Source: Gemmatimonadales bacterium (GTDB lineage: Bacteria; Gemmatimonadota; Gemmatimonadetes; Longimicrobiales; Gaopeijiaceae). Taken from it: DNA of 42,908 bases. Below, piece after piece: positions 3,704 through 39,903 of this stretch. Below the pieces are notes generated by a model. It saw only the letters and a program-made list of their open reading frames with translations. It was not told where the DNA came from and did not search any database. Position numbers and translations under genes: made by a program. Position 1 is the stretch's first letter. Each line of letters opens with the position of its first letter. Location of the stretch: assembly GCA_007692665.1 (NCBI GenBank), contig REBP01000116.1:1-42908 (forward strand). The letters run 5' to 3'.

Positions 3704-3871
3704 GCGGATTCTGAGGCCTGGGCCGGAAGGGAGGGAGGTGGGGGCCGGAGTGGCCTGTGGGGGAGCGGCGGAAGGGAGACCCTTCGAAGCTACCGCGCCC
3801 CCGGGACGAATGCAAAGCGCGCGTGGCCCGTTCCGGGTGCCGGCGCAGCGGCAGTTCGGCGGGGGGTGTGG

Positions 3872-4351
3872 ATGATCGAGGAAACCCGGTTTCGGCAGAC
3901 GATGGGGCATTTCGCAACGGGGGTGGCGGTGGCGGCGACCCGTCTCCCCGACGGTTCCTTCGTGGGCCTCACCTGCAACTCGCTGGCCTCCGTCTCGCTG
4001 GATCCCCCCCTGGTCCTCTTCTGCGTGGATCACCAGGCGACTTCCCGGGCGGCGCTCCTCGAATCCGGGGCGTTTTCACTCTCCCTCCTGGCGCGCGACG
4101 ACGAGGCGCTTTCCAGGCGGTTTGCCGCCGCGGTTCCGGACCTCCGGTTCGAGGGGCTCGCGCTGCGGGAGGCGGTCACGGGCTCCCCCATCCTGGCGTC
4201 GGCCCTCGCCTGGCTCGACTGCTCGCTCTGGAAGACCGTCGAAGCCGGGGATCACACGGTGATCTTCGGTCGGGTGGAAGCCGGAGGTTTCCGCGAGGAC
4301 GGGGATCCCCTGGTCTACTTCCGTGGACGCTACGGAACCCTGAGTCCGTGA
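3872..4351 (+). CDS. Flavin reductase family protein (FMN-binding split barrel)
   Basis: This is probably an NAD(P)H:flavin oxidoreductase that supplies reduced FMN or FAD to a monooxygenase. The 159-residue product shows the flavin-reductase pattern: FRQTMGHFATGVAVA at the N-terminus, then GLTCNSLASVSLDPPLVLFCV (the S-V-S-DPP loop that contacts FMN), then FSLSLLARDDEALSRRFA, and a C-terminal HTVIFGRVEA strand ending PLVYFRGRYGTL. Length is normal for the family. GTG at 3866 in the same frame is an alternative start two residues longer; ATG at 3872 sits behind a run of Gs. The stop overlaps the next gene's GTG. No partner monooxygenase is encoded nearby, so its client is unknown. Confidence 0.9.
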   Translation: MIEETRFRQTMGHFATGVAVAATRLPDGSFVGLTCNSLASVSLDPPLVLFCVDHQATSRAALLESGAFSLSLLARDDEALSRRFAAAVPDLRFEGLALREAVTGSPILASALAWLDCSLWKTVEAGDHTVIFGRVEAGGFREDGDPLVYFRGRYGTLSP

Positions 4352-5673
4352 CCCTTCGGCCCTTCCACCGGGGGTCGGCCCCGGCCTTCCTTGCGGGGGT
4401 TGCCCTCGCCATCGGGACCCAGGTCGGGGCGGGTCTGCTCCTGTACGGGGGACCCGGACTCCTCCCGGCCCTCTCCGTGATCCTGGCCACCGCCATGGTA
4501 TCTCTCGCCCTCGGCCTGGCTTCCGGCGCGAGCGGATCGGTGGAGGAGGCCCGCCGTGCGTGGCTTCTCCTGCTTCTCGCCTTCACCGCCGCCGCCGTCT
4601 TCTCCGGGGGGTGGCAGCTCTTTCGCGGCTTCGGGGCACGCCCCCTTACCCAGGGGCTTGGACTGGCGCTGCTCGTCGCGCTTCCGCTCTACCTCGGGGG
4701 GCGCCTTCTCTCCCAACTCGGGACCCCGGCCTCGGGGACGCGGGCGCCGGGTCCGCCGGCGCTCGTCGGGGGCGCAGTGGGACTCCTCGTGCTGGGCCAT
4801 CTGTTCTTCCCGACCCTCTCGCCCACGGCGGTGCTCCTTCTCTGCGTCGTGGCGGTCTCGGGCGGGGCCCTGGCCCACGGCTGGCTCCTGGACGAGCTGG
4901 TCCGGGAGGAAACCGTCGAGACCGGGGAAGCGGGGCTTGTCGTGCGGCGCTCCCGAAGGGTCCGGCCACCCCTGGACGTCCTGACCGTGGAGGACCGCCC
5001 GTCCGTGCGCCTGGTCCGAAGGGGGGACGGCGGCCCCCTGCACCCGGTGGACGTGGGGCTGGAAGACGACCTGCTCCCTTCGCTCCCGGCGCCGGAGCGG
5101 GTGCTGGCCCTCGGATGGCGGGTCATGCCGGCGGCGACCCGGGGGGTCCCCGCGGGGGCGGCCGTGACGCTCGTCCACCCCATGCCCGAGGGGGTCCGGG
5201 CACTTCTCGCAGGGCTGCCAGGCACGTCGCGGCATTCGGAGGACGTGAGGATCCTCGAGGGTGCGGCGGCGGCGTACCTCCTGGGAGGACCCGCGGCATC
5301 GGCCGAGGCGGCCCTGGAGGCCGCGGACTGGGTGCTCGTGGATGCGACGGAGCTGGAAGGGCTGGGCGATCAGCCATGGTCGCGCCTGCGCGGGCTCCTT
5401 CGCCCCGGGGGGACGCTGATCCTGACGGGCGCGACCGAGGCGCCCACTGACCATGGCGGTACTGGAAAGCGGGGGCTGCTTGCACCCCTCCGTGCCGGTG
5501 CGCGCTTCTTCGGCTCGGCGGGGGCCTACGTCGGGCCTTCGCCCGTCGAGGGCGGGGTCGGTGCCGGAGGCGCGGCGGGAAGGGAGGGCCTCCTGGTCTT
5601 TGCCTCGGAGGCCGGTCGGGTGTGGCCCGACACGATGGGGCGCCTCCTCCTCGTGCTTCCGGACGGCGACTGA
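4348..5673 (+). CDS. Membrane protein with spermidine-synthase-like C-terminal domain
   Basis: The 441-residue product has about six hydrophobic helices in residues 10-180, then a soluble half. The soluble half resembles the spermidine synthase fold in outline: a beta-rich entry (SVRLVRRGDGGPLHPVDVGLEDD), a VLALGW strand where SAM-type enzymes have a glycine-rich loop, VTLVHPMPEGVRALL, DVRILEGAAAAYL, and ADWVLVDATELEG followed by LRGLLRPGGTLIL. Membrane proteins fused to such domains are known in bacteria. The glycine-rich nucleotide loop is not preserved, so aminopropyl transfer is doubtful. GTG at 4348 overlaps the flavin reductase stop (GTGA); the longer frame back to 3757 runs over that gene and is rejected. 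The next gene begins three bases after its stop, suggesting co-transcription. The fold assignment is tentative. Confidence 0.65.
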   Translation: MTLRPFHRGSAPAFLAGVALAIGTQVGAGLLLYGGPGLLPALSVILATAMVSLALGLASGASGSVEEARRAWLLLLLAFTAAAVFSGGWQLFRGFGARPLTQGLGLALLVALPLYLGGRLLSQLGTPASGTRAPGPPALVGGAVGLLVLGHLFFPTLSPTAVLLLCVVAVSGGALAHGWLLDELVREETVETGEAGLVVRRSRRVRPPLDVLTVEDRPSVRLVRRGDGGPLHPVDVGLEDDLLPSLPAPERVLALGWRVMPAATRGVPAGAAVTLVHPMPEGVRALLAGLPGTSRHSEDVRILEGAAAAYLLGGPAASAEAALEAADWVLVDATELEGLGDQPWSRLRGLLRPGGTLILTGATEAPTDHGGTGKRGLLAPLRAGARFFGSAGAYVGPSPVEGGVGAGGAAGREGLLVFASEAGRVWPDTMGRLLLVLPDGD

Positions 5674-5676
5674 GCC

Positions 5677-7980
5677 GTGCGGGTTGCCCACCTCTCCGAC
5701 CTCCACCTCGGGCATCGGGCCTTTCCCCGCCTGGAGCGGGGAGGGAATCTCCGGGAACGGGACCTGTCGGCGGCCTTCCACCAGGCGATCCAGGAGGTGG
5801 CCCGCCTCGCGCCGGACGTCGTTCTCCTCTCCGGTGATCTCTTTCACCGCGCCGACCCGCCCTCCACCGCCTTCCTCGCCCTGACCCGGGGGATCCGGAG
5901 GTTCCAGGAACTCCTCCCCGACGTCCAGATCCTCGCCATTGCCGGGGAAAGCGAGACGCCTGCGGCCCCGGGGGATCCCGGTCCCGTGGCGGTTCTCGAC
6001 GCCGTTCCCGGGGTCGAGGCCGCGTCGGGCGCCCCGCGGGCCGTGCACCTGGCGCGCCTCGACGCCCACGTCCTGCTGGTCCCCCACCGCTCCGTGGTCC
6101 GGCCACCCTTCCCCGAACTGCGTCCGGACCCCGGGGCCCGCTGGAACCTCCTCCTCCTCCGGGGTCATCCCACCGGGCCCGCCGCCGAATTCGAGGGAGC
6201 TCCTCCCCCCACCCCGGCACTGCTTCTCGACGCGTCCGGCTGGGACTACGTGGCCCTGGGCGGGTCCCACCAGGTCAGGCACTGGGGCGGGAAGGTGCAC
6301 AGTGCCGGGTCGCTGGAGCGGGTGGGGCACGATCCCTGGCGGGAGGCGGCGACGGAAAAGGGTTTTCTGCTGGCCGACCTGGAAAGGGGAACGGTGGAGT
6401 TTCACCCGCTGCCGACCCGGCCGGTGGTGGACCTTGCCCCGATCCGCGCCGACCCCGACGACCCCGAGGCCGGCACCCGGCGCCTTCGCGACCTTCTCGA
6501 GGGGTTCCCGGGGGGGGTGGACGGAAAGCTTCTCCGGGTTCGGGTCCAGGGTGACCTCCTGGCCCCATCGGAGGGCGTTTCCCCGGGTCTGCTGGCGGGG
6601 GTCCGGCGCAAGGTCGCCCACATGGAGGTGAGTGTGGAGGCGCCGGGCGAGTCGTCCGAGAGGTCCCGCCGGGAGCCCCGCTCCACCGACCGGGCCGATG
6701 CCGGAGAAGAGGCAGGCCCCGCAGTGCTGGGCTGGCGCATCGGGGCAGGCCGGACGGGTCGGGTCTCGCTGCTCCCGGGGCTGTGGGCGGTGACGGCCAC
6801 CTCCCCGGGCGACCTCGAGATCGTCGCCTTCGCCCTTCAGCAGGGCTGGCGCGAGACCCCCGATACGCCCCCGGAGGAGGGTGCGCGCCTGGCATTCCAT
6901 CTGGAGGGCCCGGGAACCGGCGCGAGGGCACCGTCCGGGGCTCCGCATGCCCCGCACGCCCGGGACGACAGGGACGCCCCGGACGCCCCGGACGCGCCGG
7001 ACGCGCCCGGAGCCGGGGCGCGGGTGCCCCCCTCGCCCGCCGCGACCGCCAGCCAGGCACGGGCGGACTGGATCGAGGCGGCCGGCGACGCGGAGGCCCG
7101 GGCGCTGGAATGGGTCCGGGAGCGCCAGGAAGCCGACTCCCGCCTCGTCGCCTACCGGGAGCGGGCTCGCGAACTGCGGGAGCGCATCCGGATCCTCCGG
7201 GAGGAGGGGGACGAGGCGCGCTGCCCCACCTGTCGGCGCCCCCTGGCCGAGGCCCATCCCGCCCTCCTGTCTCTCCTCGAGGAGGAGTGGGAGGACGTGC
7301 TGCAGGACGGGACCTGGTGGAAGCGCCGTCGCGCCCAGCTGGAGGACAAGCCTCCCGAACTCCTGGCCCTGGAGCGCCGTGCGCTTCTCCTCCAGTCCGC
7401 CCTGGACCCGGCGCCGGTGCCGCCGCCGGGGCGCATGGCCTCTCCCCGTGCAACCGGGCGCAGTCCCATCCCCCTTTCCGACGCAGGCCGCCCGGTTCTC
7501 CGCCGAGCCGGCTTCCTCCTCCAGCGCGCCACCGAAGGCCGCCTGGAGGGACTGCGGCCCGCCGGGGACGGAGCCCTGGATGTCGTGGAGTCCGGCGGCC
7601 ACGCACGCCAGCCGGCCCACGGCGAGGAGGCCCTCGTGGCCCTGGTCCTGGAGGCCGCCGCCGCAGGGGTGGGAGTGACCTCCGGGACACGGGTGCACCT
7701 CCTCGTGGGCGGGCGCTCGGGCGTGGAGACCGGCGAGCTTTCGAGACTCCTCGATGCCGCTGCCGCCCTGCCCGCTGCGTTCACCCCCTCCGCCGCCCCT
7801 TCCGCCTCCTCCTCTGCCTCCCCGCGGACGGCGTGGATCGCCGTGGTTCCGCCGGCCACCACCGAGACCCTCTCCCACAGGCTCCGGGGAACGCTGGAGG
7901 TGACCCGCGACGAGGAGGATCGACTCCGCCTGCGGGTGGCTCCCTCGGGGCGGGCCCGGGTCCGGCTCGAGGGCAGCTGA
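5677..7980 (+). CDS. SbcD/Mre11-like phosphoesterase fused to zinc hook and degenerate Rad50-like C-lobe
   Basis: Residues 1-245 resemble the SbcD/Mre11 nuclease domain: SDLHLG (Asp8, His10) and SGDLFH (Asp54) are intact, but the GNHD motif is AGESE (89-93) and GHxH is GGSH (195-198); a lone His164 remains in RGHP. A linker with DAP repeats (433-444) leads to a charged, probably coiled-coil stretch (462-570) interrupted by CPTC at 516-519, which looks like the Rad50 zinc hook. Residues 605-767 resemble the C-terminal ATPase lobe of Rad50/SbcC (LLQRATEGRLEGLR, then HGEEALVALVLEAA where LSGGE is expected, then VHLLVGGRSG where LLLDE is expected), with key residues lost. No Walker A is present. 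GTG at 5677 follows the previous stop by three bases. The N-terminal assignment is firm; the C-lobe is inference from pattern. Confidence 0.85.
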   Translation: MRVAHLSDLHLGHRAFPRLERGGNLRERDLSAAFHQAIQEVARLAPDVVLLSGDLFHRADPPSTAFLALTRGIRRFQELLPDVQILAIAGESETPAAPGDPGPVAVLDAVPGVEAASGAPRAVHLARLDAHVLLVPHRSVVRPPFPELRPDPGARWNLLLLRGHPTGPAAEFEGAPPPTPALLLDASGWDYVALGGSHQVRHWGGKVHSAGSLERVGHDPWREAATEKGFLLADLERGTVEFHPLPTRPVVDLAPIRADPDDPEAGTRRLRDLLEGFPGGVDGKLLRVRVQGDLLAPSEGVSPGLLAGVRRKVAHMEVSVEAPGESSERSRREPRSTDRADAGEEAGPAVLGWRIGAGRTGRVSLLPGLWAVTATSPGDLEIVAFALQQGWRETPDTPPEEGARLAFHLEGPGTGARAPSGAPHAPHARDDRDAPDAPDAPDAPGAGARVPPSPAATASQARADWIEAAGDAEARALEWVRERQEADSRLVAYRERARELRERIRILREEGDEARCPTCRRPLAEAHPALLSLLEEEWEDVLQDGTWWKRRRAQLEDKPPELLALERRALLLQSALDPAPVPPPGRMASPRATGRSPIPLSDAGRPVLRRAGFLLQRATEGRLEGLRPAGDGALDVVESGGHARQPAHGEEALVALVLEAAAAGVGVTSGTRVHLLVGGRSGVETGELSRLLDAAAALPAAFTPSAAPSASSSASPRTAWIAVVPPATTETLSHRLRGTLEVTRDEEDRLRLRVAPSGRARVRLEGS
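6973..7008 (+). repeat. Four 9-bp tandem units in the SbcD-like gene
   Basis: Two copies of GACGCCCCG followed by two near copies (GACGCGCCG, GACGCGCCC) encode Asp-Ala-Pro repeats. The unit is three codons long, so copy-number change would keep the frame. The repeat lies in the linker between the phosphoesterase part and the coiled-coil/hook part. Confidence 0.9.
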
Positions 7981-34703: not shown

Positions 34704-35498
34704 CTCCGCGAGGCTCACCTCCGGCGCCTCCTCGGGAGGCAGGTGGCCGACTTCGGGGAGAACGACCCACCGCCCACGCTCCACCGTCTCGGCCAGCCTC
34801 CGGGCGCAGGCGGGGGACACGACGCCGTCCTCGGCACCCCAGAGTGCCAGAAGGGGCGCCCGGACCTCGCGGTACCGGTCGGAGAGATCCTCGCCCGAGG
34901 CCGGGAGGATCTGCCGGGCCGCCTGGAGAATGGCTCGCCGTCGCTCCGCCGACGCGAGGGGCGCCCGGTACCCTTCCACCTGTTCGTCATCCACCGTCTC
35001 GGGGTCGTGGACGATGCCCCGAAGCCCGGCGCGAAGCGCCCATGCCGGGGGCTGCGCCATGAGAAGGATTTCGCCCAGCCCCGACCGTCGGGCCAGCGAC
35101 AGGTAGGGAGGAAAGGGCTGGGGGAAGACGGCCCCGCTCACCACCACGAGCCCTCGCACGGCGTCGCCGTCTCCCTCGTCCTGGAGCTGGAGGGCCGCGA
35201 GGAGGATGACGGCCCCACCGAGGGAGTGGCCTGCGAGAACCGGGGCCGCCGCCCCTGGAAGTCTGCGGAGCACGTCCACGAGGTGCCCGGCCTGGGCCAG
35301 GGGCGAGTAGTCTCCTTCCGCGGGTGTGGCCGCCCGTCCGAACCCCATGAGGTCCACCAGGACGACCTGGTGATCCCGGGCGAGGTCCGGGGCCCACTTC
35401 CTCCAGGAATGGCTCGATGCCCCGAAACCGTGGACCAGGACGATGGGGGGATTGCCGGAATCGCCCAGCGTTTCGACGTGCAGGGGCGAGGGGGTCAT
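34653..35498 (-). CDS. Alpha/beta-fold hydrolase
   Basis: The 281-residue product has a complete alpha/beta hydrolase site: the HGFGASSHSW oxyanion loop, nucleophile elbow AGHSLGGAVILL, the acid in LWGAEDGVVSP and the histidine in PEVGHLPPEE. The N-terminal VETLGDSGNPPIVLVHGFG is typical. No signal peptide or membrane helix is present, so it should be cytoplasmic. The substrate is not evident; esterase, peroxidase-like and C-C hydrolase members share this pattern. ATG at 35498 overlaps the stop of the YhaN-like gene (ATGA), so it is the third gene of that unit, which is odd for a DNA-repair-like pair. The 3' end overlaps the convergent GT2 gene by 51 bases. Confidence 0.94.
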   Translation of the reverse strand: MTPSPLHVETLGDSGNPPIVLVHGFGASSHSWRKWAPDLARDHQVVLVDLMGFGRAATPAEGDYSPLAQAGHLVDVLRRLPGAAAPVLAGHSLGGAVILLAALQLQDEGDGDAVRGLVVVSGAVFPQPFPPYLSLARRSGLGEILLMAQPPAWALRAGLRGIVHDPETVDDEQVEGYRAPLASAERRRAILQAARQILPASGEDLSDRYREVRAPLLALWGAEDGVVSPACARRLAETVERGRWVVLPEVGHLPPEEAPEVSLAELRRFLSELDRTSPAPG

Positions 35499-38400
35499 GC
35501 CGGGGGCTCCTGGAGGTCGGGGCGGGTGCCCGGGTGGATACGCGAACGGGACTCCGGGTCGCGCCCCGGGGTTTCCGAAGGGTCCGGGACCAGGATGCCG
35601 CGTCCGAGGGGGGCGAGTTCCACGACCCCGGCGCCCCGGGAGGCGGCCTCCCGGGCAAAGTGCGGGTGACAGGTCACGAGGAAGATCTGCCGACGTTCTG
35701 CGAGGTCGGCCAGGGCATCGAGGGCTGCCCCCCGGCGGTCCGGATCCCAGTTCACGAAGACCTCGTCAAGAACCAGCGGGAGGGGCTCCCCCCCCCCTTC
35801 GACCAGGTCGACGACCGCCATGCGAAGGGCGAACCAGATCTGTTCCCGGGTGCCTGCGGAGAGCGGGGACTCCACCGGGAGGGCGCCGGGAAGGTGGCTT
35901 CCGCGGACCTGGAGTGCCCCGGGGTCGCGCTCGTCGCCAAGGAGGAGGCTGTCGTACCGACCCCTGGTCAGTACGGAAAGGACCTCCTCGGCGCGCCGGA
36001 CAAGCCTCGGCTGGTGCGCCTCCCGGAACCTCTGCTCCGCGACCCGGGTGACCCGGGCGAGGACCCAGAGGCGGTCGCGTTCACGGCGCACGATGGTGCG
36101 CTCCTCGCGGAGTCGAGCCAGCTCGCTCTCCAGCAGGTCGGCGGTGAGCACCTGGTCCACCTGCTCGAGCAGGGATCGGTTGCGCTGGAGTTCGGTGGCG
36201 GCAGCTTCGATTTCTTCCGCCAGCGCCTCGATGCGGGCGTGGGCACGGGCGAGGTCGGCCGTCGAGGCCGCCGTGCCGTCGGCGTGCCACTCGCTCTCCG
36301 CCTCCCGGACCCGGATCCGCAGTTCGGGGAGGGAGCCGTGGGCGGCCTGGAGTTCCCGCTCGAGATGCCTTGCCTGGCGCAGGGCCTCGAGCCGGCGTTC
36401 AGCGACTTCCACGGCCGAGGAGGGCTCCGTGCGCCCGTCCGCGCCGGACCCCGGACCCGGTGTCGGATGCGCCGGTGTCGGATGCGCCGTGAGTTCCACC
36501 CCCGGTCCCGCCTCCGGGGTTCCGCTCCCCGCCGCCTCCCGGGTAATGCGGCGAAGTGCGTCGTCAAGGGTCTCCCGCCGGCCCCTGGCCTCGGCGAGTC
36601 GGGTGCCTGCCTCTTCGAGCCGGCGCCTCGCGTCCTCCACCTCGCGGATGGCCTGCCGGCGGGTCTCCGCAGCGCGTCCCGCCTCCTCCAGGCGGGTCAG
36701 CAGGGGGGCGAGCGCCACGGCGGGTGCAGGGGCGGGGGTCGGGGATGCCGTCGCCGGGGCCGGATCCCGCTCGGGATCCGGGTCGGGATCCACGTCGGGA
36801 CCCACGTCGGGATCCACGTCGGAATCCTGGTCGGGATCCCGGAAATCCTCGGCGCGCTGCAGTCGGTCGACGAGGGCCAGGATCGACCGGTTGATCCCCA
36901 CGACGCGCTCTTCCTCCGCCCCGACGGCGGAATGCAGTCGCTCCAGTTCCCGCAGCCGCTCCCGCAGCCGCTCCAGGGACGTGGCGAGCCCCTCCCGGCC
37001 CTCCGTCACCCGTTCCGGGTGGAGCGGGAGCTCGGCCACGCACCGCCCCACCCCGGCAGAGGCCTCGCTCACCGCCCGGTCATGGGACCGGAGCCGGTCC
37101 TCGAGGGCCTGGGCCTCCGCGCGGCGCTCCGCCAGCGCCCGCTCATGCCCTGCCGCCGCCTCCCGGTTGCCGGCGCGGATCCGAATCGCGGCGGCCCCCA
37201 GGGCAACCGCTCCGACGAGCGCGCCCAGAACGATCCAGCTGTCGGCCGTCCCCCGGAGAAGGACGGCAATTGCCGCGAGGAAGACGAGCGCGGACATCCC
37301 CAGCAGAAGGCGCACCGTGGAGGCCGGGCGCAGCGGAGGCGGCGCCACCTCGGGGCGAGCGCGGTGGAGGGAGAGCCGTTCCTCGGCCTCCGCCCGCCTC
37401 GCCTCCGCGGCACTCCGCTCCACCAGCCGCGTCCGGAGCTCGTCCAGGGCCACCGCCCGAAGCGCTGCGAGGAGCTCGCTCCGACGGGGCGGCGCCAGCC
37501 ACCGGCCGGCGTCGTCCAGCAGGGGGGTGGCCAGGTCCTCGACCTCCGCCTGCACCCGCACGGCCTCGCCGGCCAGCTCCCTGGCGCGCTGCCTTGCGTC
37601 TTCGGCGCCGGTGGCTTCGACCCGGAGCGCCTCCAGCTCTCCCCTGAGCTCCAGGATCCGGTCCTCCGAGGCCGATGGGGGGGGCACCCGGCTCCCTGCC
37701 TCCGAGACCGCCGCCTCGAACCGACGAACCTCCGCCTCGAGCCCCTCCTCGATCTCGAGAAGCTCCCGGCGGCGCTCCCGGGGTGACGCCGGCAGCGTCG
37801 CGAGCTCGGACGGGTCACCCGCCTCGCGCCGGAGCGTGTCCAGATGCCGGATGCGCGCGCCCAGCGGAAGCAGTTCCGCGGCCCGACGCACTCGCTCCGC
37901 GAGCTCGGCCCGCTCCCGCCGCAGGGCGGCCAGCCTCGCATCTCCCCAGTCCACGGCGTCCCGGGCCTCCCTCAGCTCCTGGTCCTTGCTCCGGGCCTCC
38001 CGCAGGTCGGCCGTGCGTTCCTCGATCTCGGTCCCCAGGGCCATGTCCCGGGTTCTCGACCTGCGATCCGGCCGCCAGAGCGCGTTCGCCCCGCCTTCGA
38101 GGGCGTCGGCAACGGTACGGGGCGGGGCCATGTCCCGGGTTCCCATCCCGGCAAGGATCCGGTCCCGGATCGCATTCCAGGCGTTGCCCTGCTGAAGCCG
38201 CGTGAGCTCGGGGAGGTCGATGGCGTGGACCTGCCGGTAGATCTCCCGGGGCACATGGTCGGCCGGCGGGAGGTGGGCATTTCGGAGATCCTCCTCGACA
38301 TCGTTCCGGTACAGTCGGCCCCAGGGCGCGGCCAGTATCCGGCGGTGCGCGTGGAAGCGGCTGCCGTCCCGAGTCCGGAAGTCGCCCAGGATCTCCCCCT

Positions 38401-38605
38401 CGGTACCGTCCCATGGGGCCAGCGGATGGGCGTCCCGGCGGGCGGGATAGATGCCGTGCAGCAGGGTGCGGATCGCCTCGAGCAGCGTGGTCTTGCCCGC
38501 CTCGTTGGGGCCGGTCACCACGACGAAGCCCGGAAGGGGGTCGGGGCCGGTATCGATGTCGCGGAGGGGGCCGAAGGCGGGGATGCGAAGGCGTTCGATC
38601 CTCAC
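35495..38605 (-). CDS. YhaN-type AAA ATPase (Rad50/SbcC-like, with central membrane segment)
   Basis: The 1036-residue product is an SMC/Rad50-like ATPase. The N-terminal AAA domain has Walker A TGPNEAGKTTLLEAIRTL (32-40) and the family-typical LYRNDVEEDLR and VHAIDLPELTRLQQGNAWN. Long coiled coils run at about 190-350 and 500-850. Two hydrophobic helices at about 430-475 (LLGMSALVFLAAIAVLL; WIVLGALVGAVALGAAA) split the coil where the Rad50 hook lies; YhaN-family proteins have such helices. The C-lobe has LTRGRYDSLLL, SPLSAGTREQIWFALRMAVV (about 912) and Walker B LPLVLDEVFVNWD. No CxxC hook is seen. It overlaps both neighbours by ATGA. An acidic Asp-Pro repeat occurs at about 588-611. Most likely it acts with the SbcD-like partner on DNA ends near the membrane. 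Confidence 0.92.
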   Translation of the reverse strand: MRIERLRIPAFGPLRDIDTGPDPLPGFVVVTGPNEAGKTTLLEAIRTLLHGIYPARRDAHPLAPWDGTEGEILGDFRTRDGSRFHAHRRILAAPWGRLYRNDVEEDLRNAHLPPADHVPREIYRQVHAIDLPELTRLQQGNAWNAIRDRILAGMGTRDMAPPRTVADALEGGANALWRPDRRSRTRDMALGTEIEERTADLREARSKDQELREARDAVDWGDARLAALRRERAELAERVRRAAELLPLGARIRHLDTLRREAGDPSELATLPASPRERRRELLEIEEGLEAEVRRFEAAVSEAGSRVPPPSASEDRILELRGELEALRVEATGAEDARQRARELAGEAVRVQAEVEDLATPLLDDAGRWLAPPRRSELLAALRAVALDELRTRLVERSAAEARRAEAEERLSLHRARPEVAPPPLRPASTVRLLLGMSALVFLAAIAVLLRGTADSWIVLGALVGAVALGAAAIRIRAGNREAAAGHERALAERRAEAQALEDRLRSHDRAVSEASAGVGRCVAELPLHPERVTEGREGLATSLERLRERLRELERLHSAVGAEEERVVGINRSILALVDRLQRAEDFRDPDQDSDVDPDVGPDVDPDPDPERDPAPATASPTPAPAPAVALAPLLTRLEEAGRAAETRRQAIREVEDARRRLEEAGTRLAEARGRRETLDDALRRITREAAGSGTPEAGPGVELTAHPTPAHPTPGPGSGADGRTEPSSAVEVAERRLEALRQARHLERELQAAHGSLPELRIRVREAESEWHADGTAASTADLARAHARIEALAEEIEAAATELQRNRSLLEQVDQVLTADLLESELARLREERTIVRRERDRLWVLARVTRVAEQRFREAHQPRLVRRAEEVLSVLTRGRYDSLLLGDERDPGALQVRGSHLPGALPVESPLSAGTREQIWFALRMAVVDLVEGGGEPLPLVLDEVFVNWDPDRRGAALDALADLAERRQIFLVTCHPHFAREAASRGAGVVELAPLGRGILVPDPSETPGRDPESRSRIHPGTRPDLQEPPA
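36771..36842 (-). repeat. Six 12-bp tandem units in the YhaN-like gene
   Basis: Units of 12 bases beginning TCGGGATCC or a close variant (plus strand) run from 36771 to 36842, with one-to-three base differences. Four-codon units encode alternating Asp-Pro and Asp-Val pairs on the minus strand. The stretch lies in a disordered insert between coiled-coil segments, followed by a Pro-Ala rich run. Confidence 0.9.
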
Positions 38606-39903
38606 GGGGCCTCCCCGCCCTGGAGGAAACGCTCCAGGAGTTCGAGGTCACCGCCCTCCAGGAGCTCCCGGAGGTAGGCGTCGAGGGCGGGGCGGTTTCC
38701 CGGTCCGAGGCCGGGGTGACCCGCGAGATCGTCGACGCCGAGCCCCAGCGCCTCCGAGGGCGACGGTCCGCCCGGGCGGACCAGGCTCTGCAGGAGGCGC
38801 AGGGTCTCGCCTGCCGCATCCTGGCGTTCCAGTGCGGGGCCCGGATCCAGCGCCGGCCGCAGCCCGGCGGTCCGGATCTCCACCTCGAGTGCCCCGAACA
38901 GGCGTCCCGCCTCCTCGGCAAGGGTGGCGTGCTCGGCGGCGTCCTGGAGCATGCGGTGAAGGGGGCAGGGCCCGGAGAGTTCCAGCCGGACCATCCATTC
39001 CGTGCCCGGAAGGCCGGGATCGCCGCGCCGGGCTGCCGCCCACGCGGTCTCGAGGTGGCGGAGGAGCGCGGCCAGCGTGCCGGCCTCGGAGAGCCCACGG
39101 ATGACCAGGGTCTCCCATCGGACCGGCGCCAGGTCGACGAACGTCACGTCCGGCGCGGCGCCCGGCGCCGTGAGCTCCACGAGAAGGCCGCCCTTCGCCC
39201 CGGTCTCCCGGGGGGAGCGACCCTGCGTGTTCCCCGGGTAGTGGATCCCCGGAAGCGTGCTCAGGACCTGACGGAGGTGGATGTGCCCGAGCGCCCAGTA
39301 GTCGAAACCGGCTTCCCTGAGGCGGGGAAGTTCGGAGGGCGCATAGCGGTCATGGTCGTCGTCGCCTCGGGCGCCCCCCACCTGGGTGTGGAGGAGAGCC
39401 ACGGACGGGACGCCCTTCCCGGAAGGGGGGCGGAAGCCCCGGGAAAGGTCCCGGTCCTCACGATCGGTCTCGTGACCTGCGCCCGTCACCGTCCCCACGA
39501 CCCGACCGTCCCGCATCACCTGGACGGTGCGCGGCTCGGGACCCTCGAACCGGTGGATCTCCCCGGGCCAGTCCGTGCGGCCCCCCACGGTGGGGCCCGA
39601 TGCCGGGTCCCTGGCGAAATCGGAGGCCGGATCGTGGTTTCCCGTGACATGAAGAAACGGGATCCCGGCTTCCGCGAGACCGGTGAGTTCGCGGGCGAGG
39701 AAGCGCTCCGTCGCCAGCGAGAGCCGTGCACCGTCGAAGAGATCGCCGGCCACGAGCACCGCATCCACCCTCTCCGTGCGGGCCAGCTCCAGACCCCTCC
39801 GGAGGGCCTCTCGCGATGCCTCGCGAAGACGCCGCCGGATTTCCGTGCTCCGGCCGGCGAAGAGGGTGTCCAGGTGCACATCGGCGAGATGGAGGAACCG
39901 CAT
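38602..39903 (-). CDS. SbcD/YhaO-like DNA repair exonuclease (metallophosphoesterase)
   Basis: The 433-residue product has every Mre11-type motif: LADVHLD (Asp8, His10), VAGDLFDGA (Asp54), VTGNHDPASD (Asn89, His90), LLHTQ (His172) and ALGHIHLRQ (His207, His209). It should be a Mn-dependent nuclease that needs the adjacent YhaN-like ATPase. The C-terminal 150 residues form a capping or dimerisation domain and end in ELLERFLQGGEAP. ATG at 39903 is used. The open frame runs to 42699 on this strand, but that is antisense to the glutamate dehydrogenase gene and is rejected. Its stop overlaps the YhaN-like start (ATGA), as in B. subtilis-type yhaO-yhaN pairs. It is the direct contrast to the degenerate SbcD-like protein at 5677-7980. 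Confidence 0.95.
   Translation of the reverse strand: MRFLHLADVHLDTLFAGRSTEIRRRLREASREALRRGLELARTERVDAVLVAGDLFDGARLSLATERFLARELTGLAEAGIPFLHVTGNHDPASDFARDPASGPTVGGRTDWPGEIHRFEGPEPRTVQVMRDGRVVGTVTGAGHETDREDRDLSRGFRPPSGKGVPSVALLHTQVGGARGDDDHDRYAPSELPRLREAGFDYWALGHIHLRQVLSTLPGIHYPGNTQGRSPRETGAKGGLLVELTAPGAAPDVTFVDLAPVRWETLVIRGLSEAGTLAALLRHLETAWAAARRGDPGLPGTEWMVRLELSGPCPLHRMLQDAAEHATLAEEAGRLFGALEVEIRTAGLRPALDPGPALERQDAAGETLRLLQSLVRPGGPSPSEALGLGVDDLAGHPGLGPGNRPALDAYLRELLEGGDLELLERFLQGGEAP

Follow-up and report, generated by a model that had tools for sequence, protein, structure and literature searches.

Mre11-Rad50/SbcCD complexes have been studied mainly as ATP-driven nucleases, and the structural, tethering share of their work has been hard to isolate. 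Fusions of the two subunits are already known from Mimivirus (R555), Clostridium kluyveri, Deferribacter, and Dictyostelium, and in the fusions from Anaerostipes and a Bacillus phage one of the SbcC P-loop NTPase segments was not observed (Yoshida et al., 2011, PMC3175470). The known fusions are sporadic, fall outside the canonical clades, are linked to mobile elements, and mostly occur beside a normal SbcCD, and Mimivirus R555 has kept its ATPase motifs and most of its nuclease residues (PMC3175470). A search of the open-access literature found no report of a vertically inherited, family-wide SbcCD pseudoenzyme with an invariant hook.

Our analyses of a 42,908-nucleotide stretch of DNA from a Gemmatimonadales bacterium, a member of the Gemmatimonadota (hereafter the window) have identified a single open reading frame, with a GTG start and no internal stops, in which an SbcD domain, a remnant of the SbcC N-lobe, a zinc hook, and an SbcC C-lobe follow one another in one chain (Table 1). 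The preliminary description of this DNA took Mre11 and Rad50 parts to be normally separate proteins, and a hook on the nuclease chain with no Walker A to be unusual; Mre11/Rad50 fusions are precedented, and this protein shares with them the order Mre11 then Rad50. It differs from them in that a housekeeping copy has apparently become a pseudoenzyme that is inherited across one family, and in that it is sister to the canonical sbcDC of its own order, with no close phage or plasmid relative found, whereas the known fusions lie outside the canonical clades. We consider it slightly more probable than an even chance that the protein is a nuclease-dead, ATP-independent DNA-tethering scaffold, joined through its zinc hook, that derives from an sbcDC operon decayed in place.

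TABLE 1. Features of the window that are discussed in the text.
Feature	Positions	Strand	Basis or remarks
Degenerate SbcD-SbcC fusion, whole gene, 767 aa	5677..7980	+	ORF, Pfam, and family profile
SbcD/Mre11 calcineurin-like phosphoesterase domain, residues 1-250	5677..6426	+	
Presumptive counterpart of the capping region at the SbcD C terminus, about residues 251-323	6427..6645	+	Conserved alignment with canonical SbcD
SbcC N-lobe remnant around Walker A, residues 361-391, P-loop destroyed	6757..6849	+	hhalign
Shortened coiled coil with predicted zinc hook, residues 462-580	7060..7416	+	Pfam, hhalign, AF2 hairpin, Foldseek
CPTC zinc hook, residues 516-519	7222-7233	+	
Degenerate SbcC/Rad50 C-lobe, residues 605-760, without the residues of the signature, Walker B, and H-loop	7489..7956	+	Profile, hhalign
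AAA_27 (YhaN-like) ATPase partner	35495..38605	-	Pfam PF13514 E = 1e-16, SMC_N, SbcC_Walker_B
Second SbcD-like nuclease, YhaO-like	38602..39903	-	All catalytic motifs intact; system separate from the fusion

The single sequence matches the Pfam models Metallophos (E = 3.4e-6, above its cut-off) and Rad50_zn_hook (E = 0.0037, below its cut-off) and no Pfam ATPase model, and the best solved Mre11 structure aligns with it at E = 2e-9, with AGESETP opposite AGNHEMP. When a profile built from 17 members of the window's family is used, matches are obtained to Mre11 structures (E = 4.5e-20), to the Rad50 hook (E = 0.09), and to Rad50 C-lobe structures (positions 626-768, E down to 4e-7), the last of which are undetectable from the single sequence. 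An hhalign comparison with canonical SbcC (13 proteins from the phylum) covers both the hook and the C-lobe (99.9%, E = 1.9e-37), and it also places residues 361-391 (PGLWAVTATSPGDLEIVAFAL) opposite the strand-loop-helix that holds the canonical Walker A (PGLTGIIGPNGAGKSTILEAI; E = 7e-4), with a score of 29 against at most 9.3 in the 19 reported shuffled controls. At this site the canonical P-loop GPNGAGKST has given way to TATSPGDLE. With residues 361-391 aligned to the Walker A region, both ATPase lobes are seen to persist as remnants, and the chain is what is left of a whole sbcDC operon. The combination of SbcD, zinc hook, and Rad50 C-lobe proposed in the preliminary description, including its assignment of the C-terminal region to an ABC C-lobe, is thus borne out; its "half" Rad50 is not, as an N-lobe remnant is found too, and its statement that there is no Walker A anywhere holds for a functional Walker A, which has been destroyed, but not for the degraded remnant, which is present. 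The protein is homologous to SbcCD/Mre11-Rad50 over the phosphoesterase domain, the Walker A region, the hook, and the C-lobe, and is unlike it in lacking all of the catalytic motifs that the canonical proteins possess (viz. GNHD, GHxH, Walker A, signature, and Walker B), in having short arms in place of long coiled coils, and in the joining of the two genes in many members.

In the window's protein the ligands of metal site 1 (D8, H10, D54 within GDLF 53-56, and H198) are kept, GNHD is replaced by AGESE (89-93), GHxH by GGSH (195-198) with Gly196 in place of the first His, and the His of LLHG by Arg162; the residue positions reported earlier for Asp8/His10, Asp54, AGESE, GGSH, and CPTC (516-519) are all right. 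The erosion of both active sites that had been claimed from this one sequence is confirmed by residue counts in 26 aligned members of the window's family and 14 canonical relatives, the latter being intact at all of the counted positions in 13-14 of 14 cases. Neither the catalytic His85 nor the metal-site-2 residue Asn84 is kept in any family member (0/26 each); Arg replaces the former in 24, and the position of the latter is variously occupied (E in 8, A in 7, P in 6), with no single conserved substitute ligand. The first His of GHxH is lost in 24/26 and the LxHG His in 17/26, whereas site 1 is largely retained (D8 25/26, H10 24/26, D54 25/26, second His of GHxH 24/26), apart from a few members (L033, L027) in which its ligands are lost as well. 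Of the ATPase residues, the Walker A Lys, the Walker B Asp, and the H-loop His are each found in 0/26, and none of 17 fusions matched the Pfam ATPase models, several of which were matched by 13/13 canonical SbcC proteins. Both hook cysteines are present in 26/26, even where CPTC has become CGxC or CSxC. Ten additional family members show the same pattern, with the hook visible in nine, and in eight additional members of sister families GNHD and GHYH are retained and a Walker A is visible in every one.

Judged by these residues, neither the two-metal nuclease site with its catalytic His (DxH, GDxF, GNHD/E, LxHG, and GHxH) nor the ABC motif set (Walker A, Q-loop, signature, Walker B, and H-loop) is intact. 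The H85S form of Pyrococcus furiosus Mre11 has lost both its exonuclease and its endonuclease activity (PMC8007570), and from the loss of His85 the nuclease of the family is likewise predicted to be dead; from the loss of Walker A and Walker B an ATP cycle is predicted to be absent. The near-intact metal-1 site could allow residual or altered catalysis, and an unlikely, though not negligible, alternative is that the phosphoesterase is still an enzyme, working with one metal or with substitute ligands (e.g., Glu91, His131, His137, and His164) on some other phosphate ester or cleaving DNA by an unusual route, with a hook that merely dimerizes. This would fit the retention of D8, H10, D54, and H198 in 24-25 of the 26 members, the conservation of the replacement G-x-R-D-T-P itself (Arg 24/26), and the low dN/dS of the phosphoesterase domain (0.085); it is opposed by the loss of Asn84, His85, and the first GHxH His in 24-26 of the 26, with no one substitute ligand conserved in place of the Asn, by the fully inactive P. 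furiosus mutant, and by the members that lack site-1 ligands too.

Residues 440-590, modeled with AF2 from two sequences, form a helical hairpin with CPTC in its turn (mean pLDDT 84), at the apex where the preliminary description expected it, and this model puts the CxxC hook, which may bind zinc, at the end of a coiled-coil hairpin. The top Foldseek match of this model is the Rad50 zinc hook 1l8d, at a weak E of 0.09, and in VIA-align many unrelated helical hairpins score equally, which makes that comparison unspecific; the hairpin is consistent with a Rad50 hook without being decisive. The full-length two-sequence model (pLDDT 43) was too poor for use. The helix predicted on each side of the hook comprises about 50-60 residues, far fewer than in canonical SbcC, and the hook Cys lies at about position 405 in canonical SbcC vs. 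about 130-270 in the majority of family members with split genes, so that long coiled-coil arms are predicted to be missing.

Residues that are invariant and specific to the family (viz. R496, W538, Q543, W547, W548, and K558) cluster by the hook. They would suit an adaptor whose hook-proximal helices engage a further protein of the hook or SMC type (SMC, RecN, or other) in chromosome organization, not break repair, a reading that we find quite improbable, since the neighborhood of the gene (a membrane protein, a flavin reductase, RsgA, a sigma factor, and TrpE) contains no partner gene and SMC-like proteins are present in these genomes anyway. These neighbors also give no hint of DNA repair.

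A homologue is carried by 30 of the 38 genomes of the window's family, and the survey of related genomes proposed in the preliminary description has shown the GNHD loss to be family-wide and the GHxH loss to be nearly so. The nearest named relative ("Gemmatimonadetes bacterium," SKNW01000061.1; locus L003) is 62-68% identical over its full length and has the same neighbors. The membrane protein encoded directly upstream in the window (about 3757-5673, + strand) has no Pfam match; its counterpart beside L003 (844-2223) overlaps the fusion gene by 4 bp, and it is conserved in only part of the family.

Elsewhere in the order and class, two adjacent genes are found, encoding an SbcD of about 400 aa and then an SbcC of about 815 aa, and this intact sbcD-sbcC operon of the sister families is the direct ancestor-type locus of the fusion. 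In a tree based on 416 columns, with six catalytic columns (DxH, GDxF, and GNHD) left out, the 26 aligned family members form one clade that is split from the canonical relatives at 100/100. The fused state changes five times on this tree, with at least three of the changes forced by strong branches, which argues that fusion (or re-splitting) has occurred repeatedly. Split members (e.g., L046, L047, L050, and L082) keep a 4-bp gene overlap that is also present in some canonical operons (e.g., L092 and L096), and this shared overlap makes a pair of overlapping genes the likely ancestral state. Taken across genomes, the loci form a graded series of intact operon, split inactive pair, and fused gene. 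In one genome of sister family f3 (G068), an intact sbcD-sbcC lies between a flavin reductase gene upstream and trpE downstream, as in the window; this synteny, which G068 alone shows among the canonical loci checked, shows positional descent by comparison with one sister family and indicates a probable decay in situ of the housekeeping SbcCD locus. A horizontally acquired viral or plasmid fusion is rejected on the grounds of this synteny and of a phage/plasmid search in which no close relative was found, and a defense system is rejected because the fusion protein had no match among the PADLOC models at E<=0.01. In one genome only (G037), an additional, divergent sbcDC (L130; contig C160, 3820-7397) that looks intact, with GNHD and the P-loop GSNESGKS, occurs beside the degenerate fusion.

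Substitution patterns point to purifying selection on the fusion protein. Between the window copy and that of a second strain, dN/dS (NG86) is 0.079 over 326 codons, which are the first 326 codons only; against L003 the full-length value is 0.23 and the regional values are 0.14 (phosphoesterase), 0.18 (hook), 0.28 (C-lobe), and 0.39 (linker), all with dS near saturation. Mean identity within the family is 0.49 for the phosphoesterase, 0.53 for the hook, and 0.29 for the C-lobe, vs. 0.51, 0.41, and 0.65 in the canonical relatives, which span more families, and constraint has shifted away from the head of the ATPase and towards the hook. The many lost motifs and the low conservation of linker and C-lobe might suggest a pseudogene on its way to loss or an assembly artefact, which we regard as hardly credible and have rejected in view of the between-strain dN/dS of 0.079 and of frames that are intact in almost every one of the roughly 35 members sampled, among them those of the single-contig genomes G022, G025, and G091; the invariant hook cysteines and the recurrence of the ORF in L003, which comes from an independent assembly, also speak against it. 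The second strain's locus (L002, L131) lies on contig C209 of the window's own MAG (G000), is 91% identical over residues 1-326, and is cut by the contig end; its presence implies that the bin mixes strains.

The Rad50 hook is a dimerization module that is exchangeable with an SMC hinge (PMC6969161), and with a nuclease and an ATP cycle that are both predicted to be absent, an ATP-independent tether or end-binding scaffold is the favored function. The scaffold dimerized through zinc that the preliminary description suggested thus stays the best mechanism. We propose that the decay took place in the stem of the family, where metal site 2 and the catalytic His were lost from the nuclease, where the ATPase head became smaller and was stripped of its Walker A, its Q-loop, its signature, its Walker B, and its H-loop, and where most of the coiled-coil arms disappeared. 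The phosphoesterase fold, metal-1 site included, would have been retained together with the zinc hook and the adjacent coiled coil, and the overlapping sbcD and sbcC would then have fused in several branches. The SbcD-like domains would bind to DNA or to its ends and leave it uncut, and a zinc ion common to two hooks would join two chains, so that DNA segments would be tethered or ends shielded. With a little less than even confidence, we extend this to the family as a whole, which would have turned SbcCD into a structural pseudoenzyme selected for hook-mediated, ATP-independent DNA tethering, its nuclease and ATPase roles having moved elsewhere or been dropped. The catalytic residues for both activities have been removed family-wide and the hook cysteines are invariant, which makes the scaffold role separately testable; if the proposal is true, the family offers a naturally occurring separation-of-function variant of Mre11-Rad50, in which the tethering role may have outlived the enzyme activity.

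Those enzymatic duties may have been taken over by the second system of the window, a pair which, from its domain content, we take to be of the B. subtilis YhaO/YhaN type. Its SbcD-like protein has all of the residues reported for it earlier (D8, H10, D54, GNHD 88-91, and GHIH 206-209), with the correction that it is encoded on the minus strand. The SbcD-type phosphoesterase fold is common to this pair and the fusion; the pair is unlike it in being a two-gene system of its own, intact and with every motif present, and in belonging to a different SbcD lineage. Counting only strong matches (E<1e-80), the YhaO-like gene occurs in 24 of the 38 genomes of the window's family (f1) and nowhere else in the phylum sample, and in most genomes with both genes on one contig it lies 25-90 kb from the fusion. 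This near confinement to the family and this spacing lend something to the idea that the fusion serves the YhaO/YhaN-like complex as a regulator or a decoy subunit, much as the preliminary description had seen in it a possible regulator of the "real SbcCD-like complex." We nonetheless judge this improbable, as 9 of the 30 fusion carriers have no YhaO-like match at E<1e-80, three genomes have the YhaO-like gene without the fusion, co-occurrence is not significant across the 38 family genomes (Fisher p = 0.12), and the fusion goes back to another operon, the orthologous sbcDC; on the same co-occurrence result the pair is rejected as an obligate partner. A partnership with Ku/NHEJ is likewise rejected, Ku being found in 12/30 genomes with the fusion against 3/8 without it (p = 1.0, no association). 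Two adjacent Ku genes are present in the window's own genome (G000, contig C216, 16085-17360) and also in G015 and G023.
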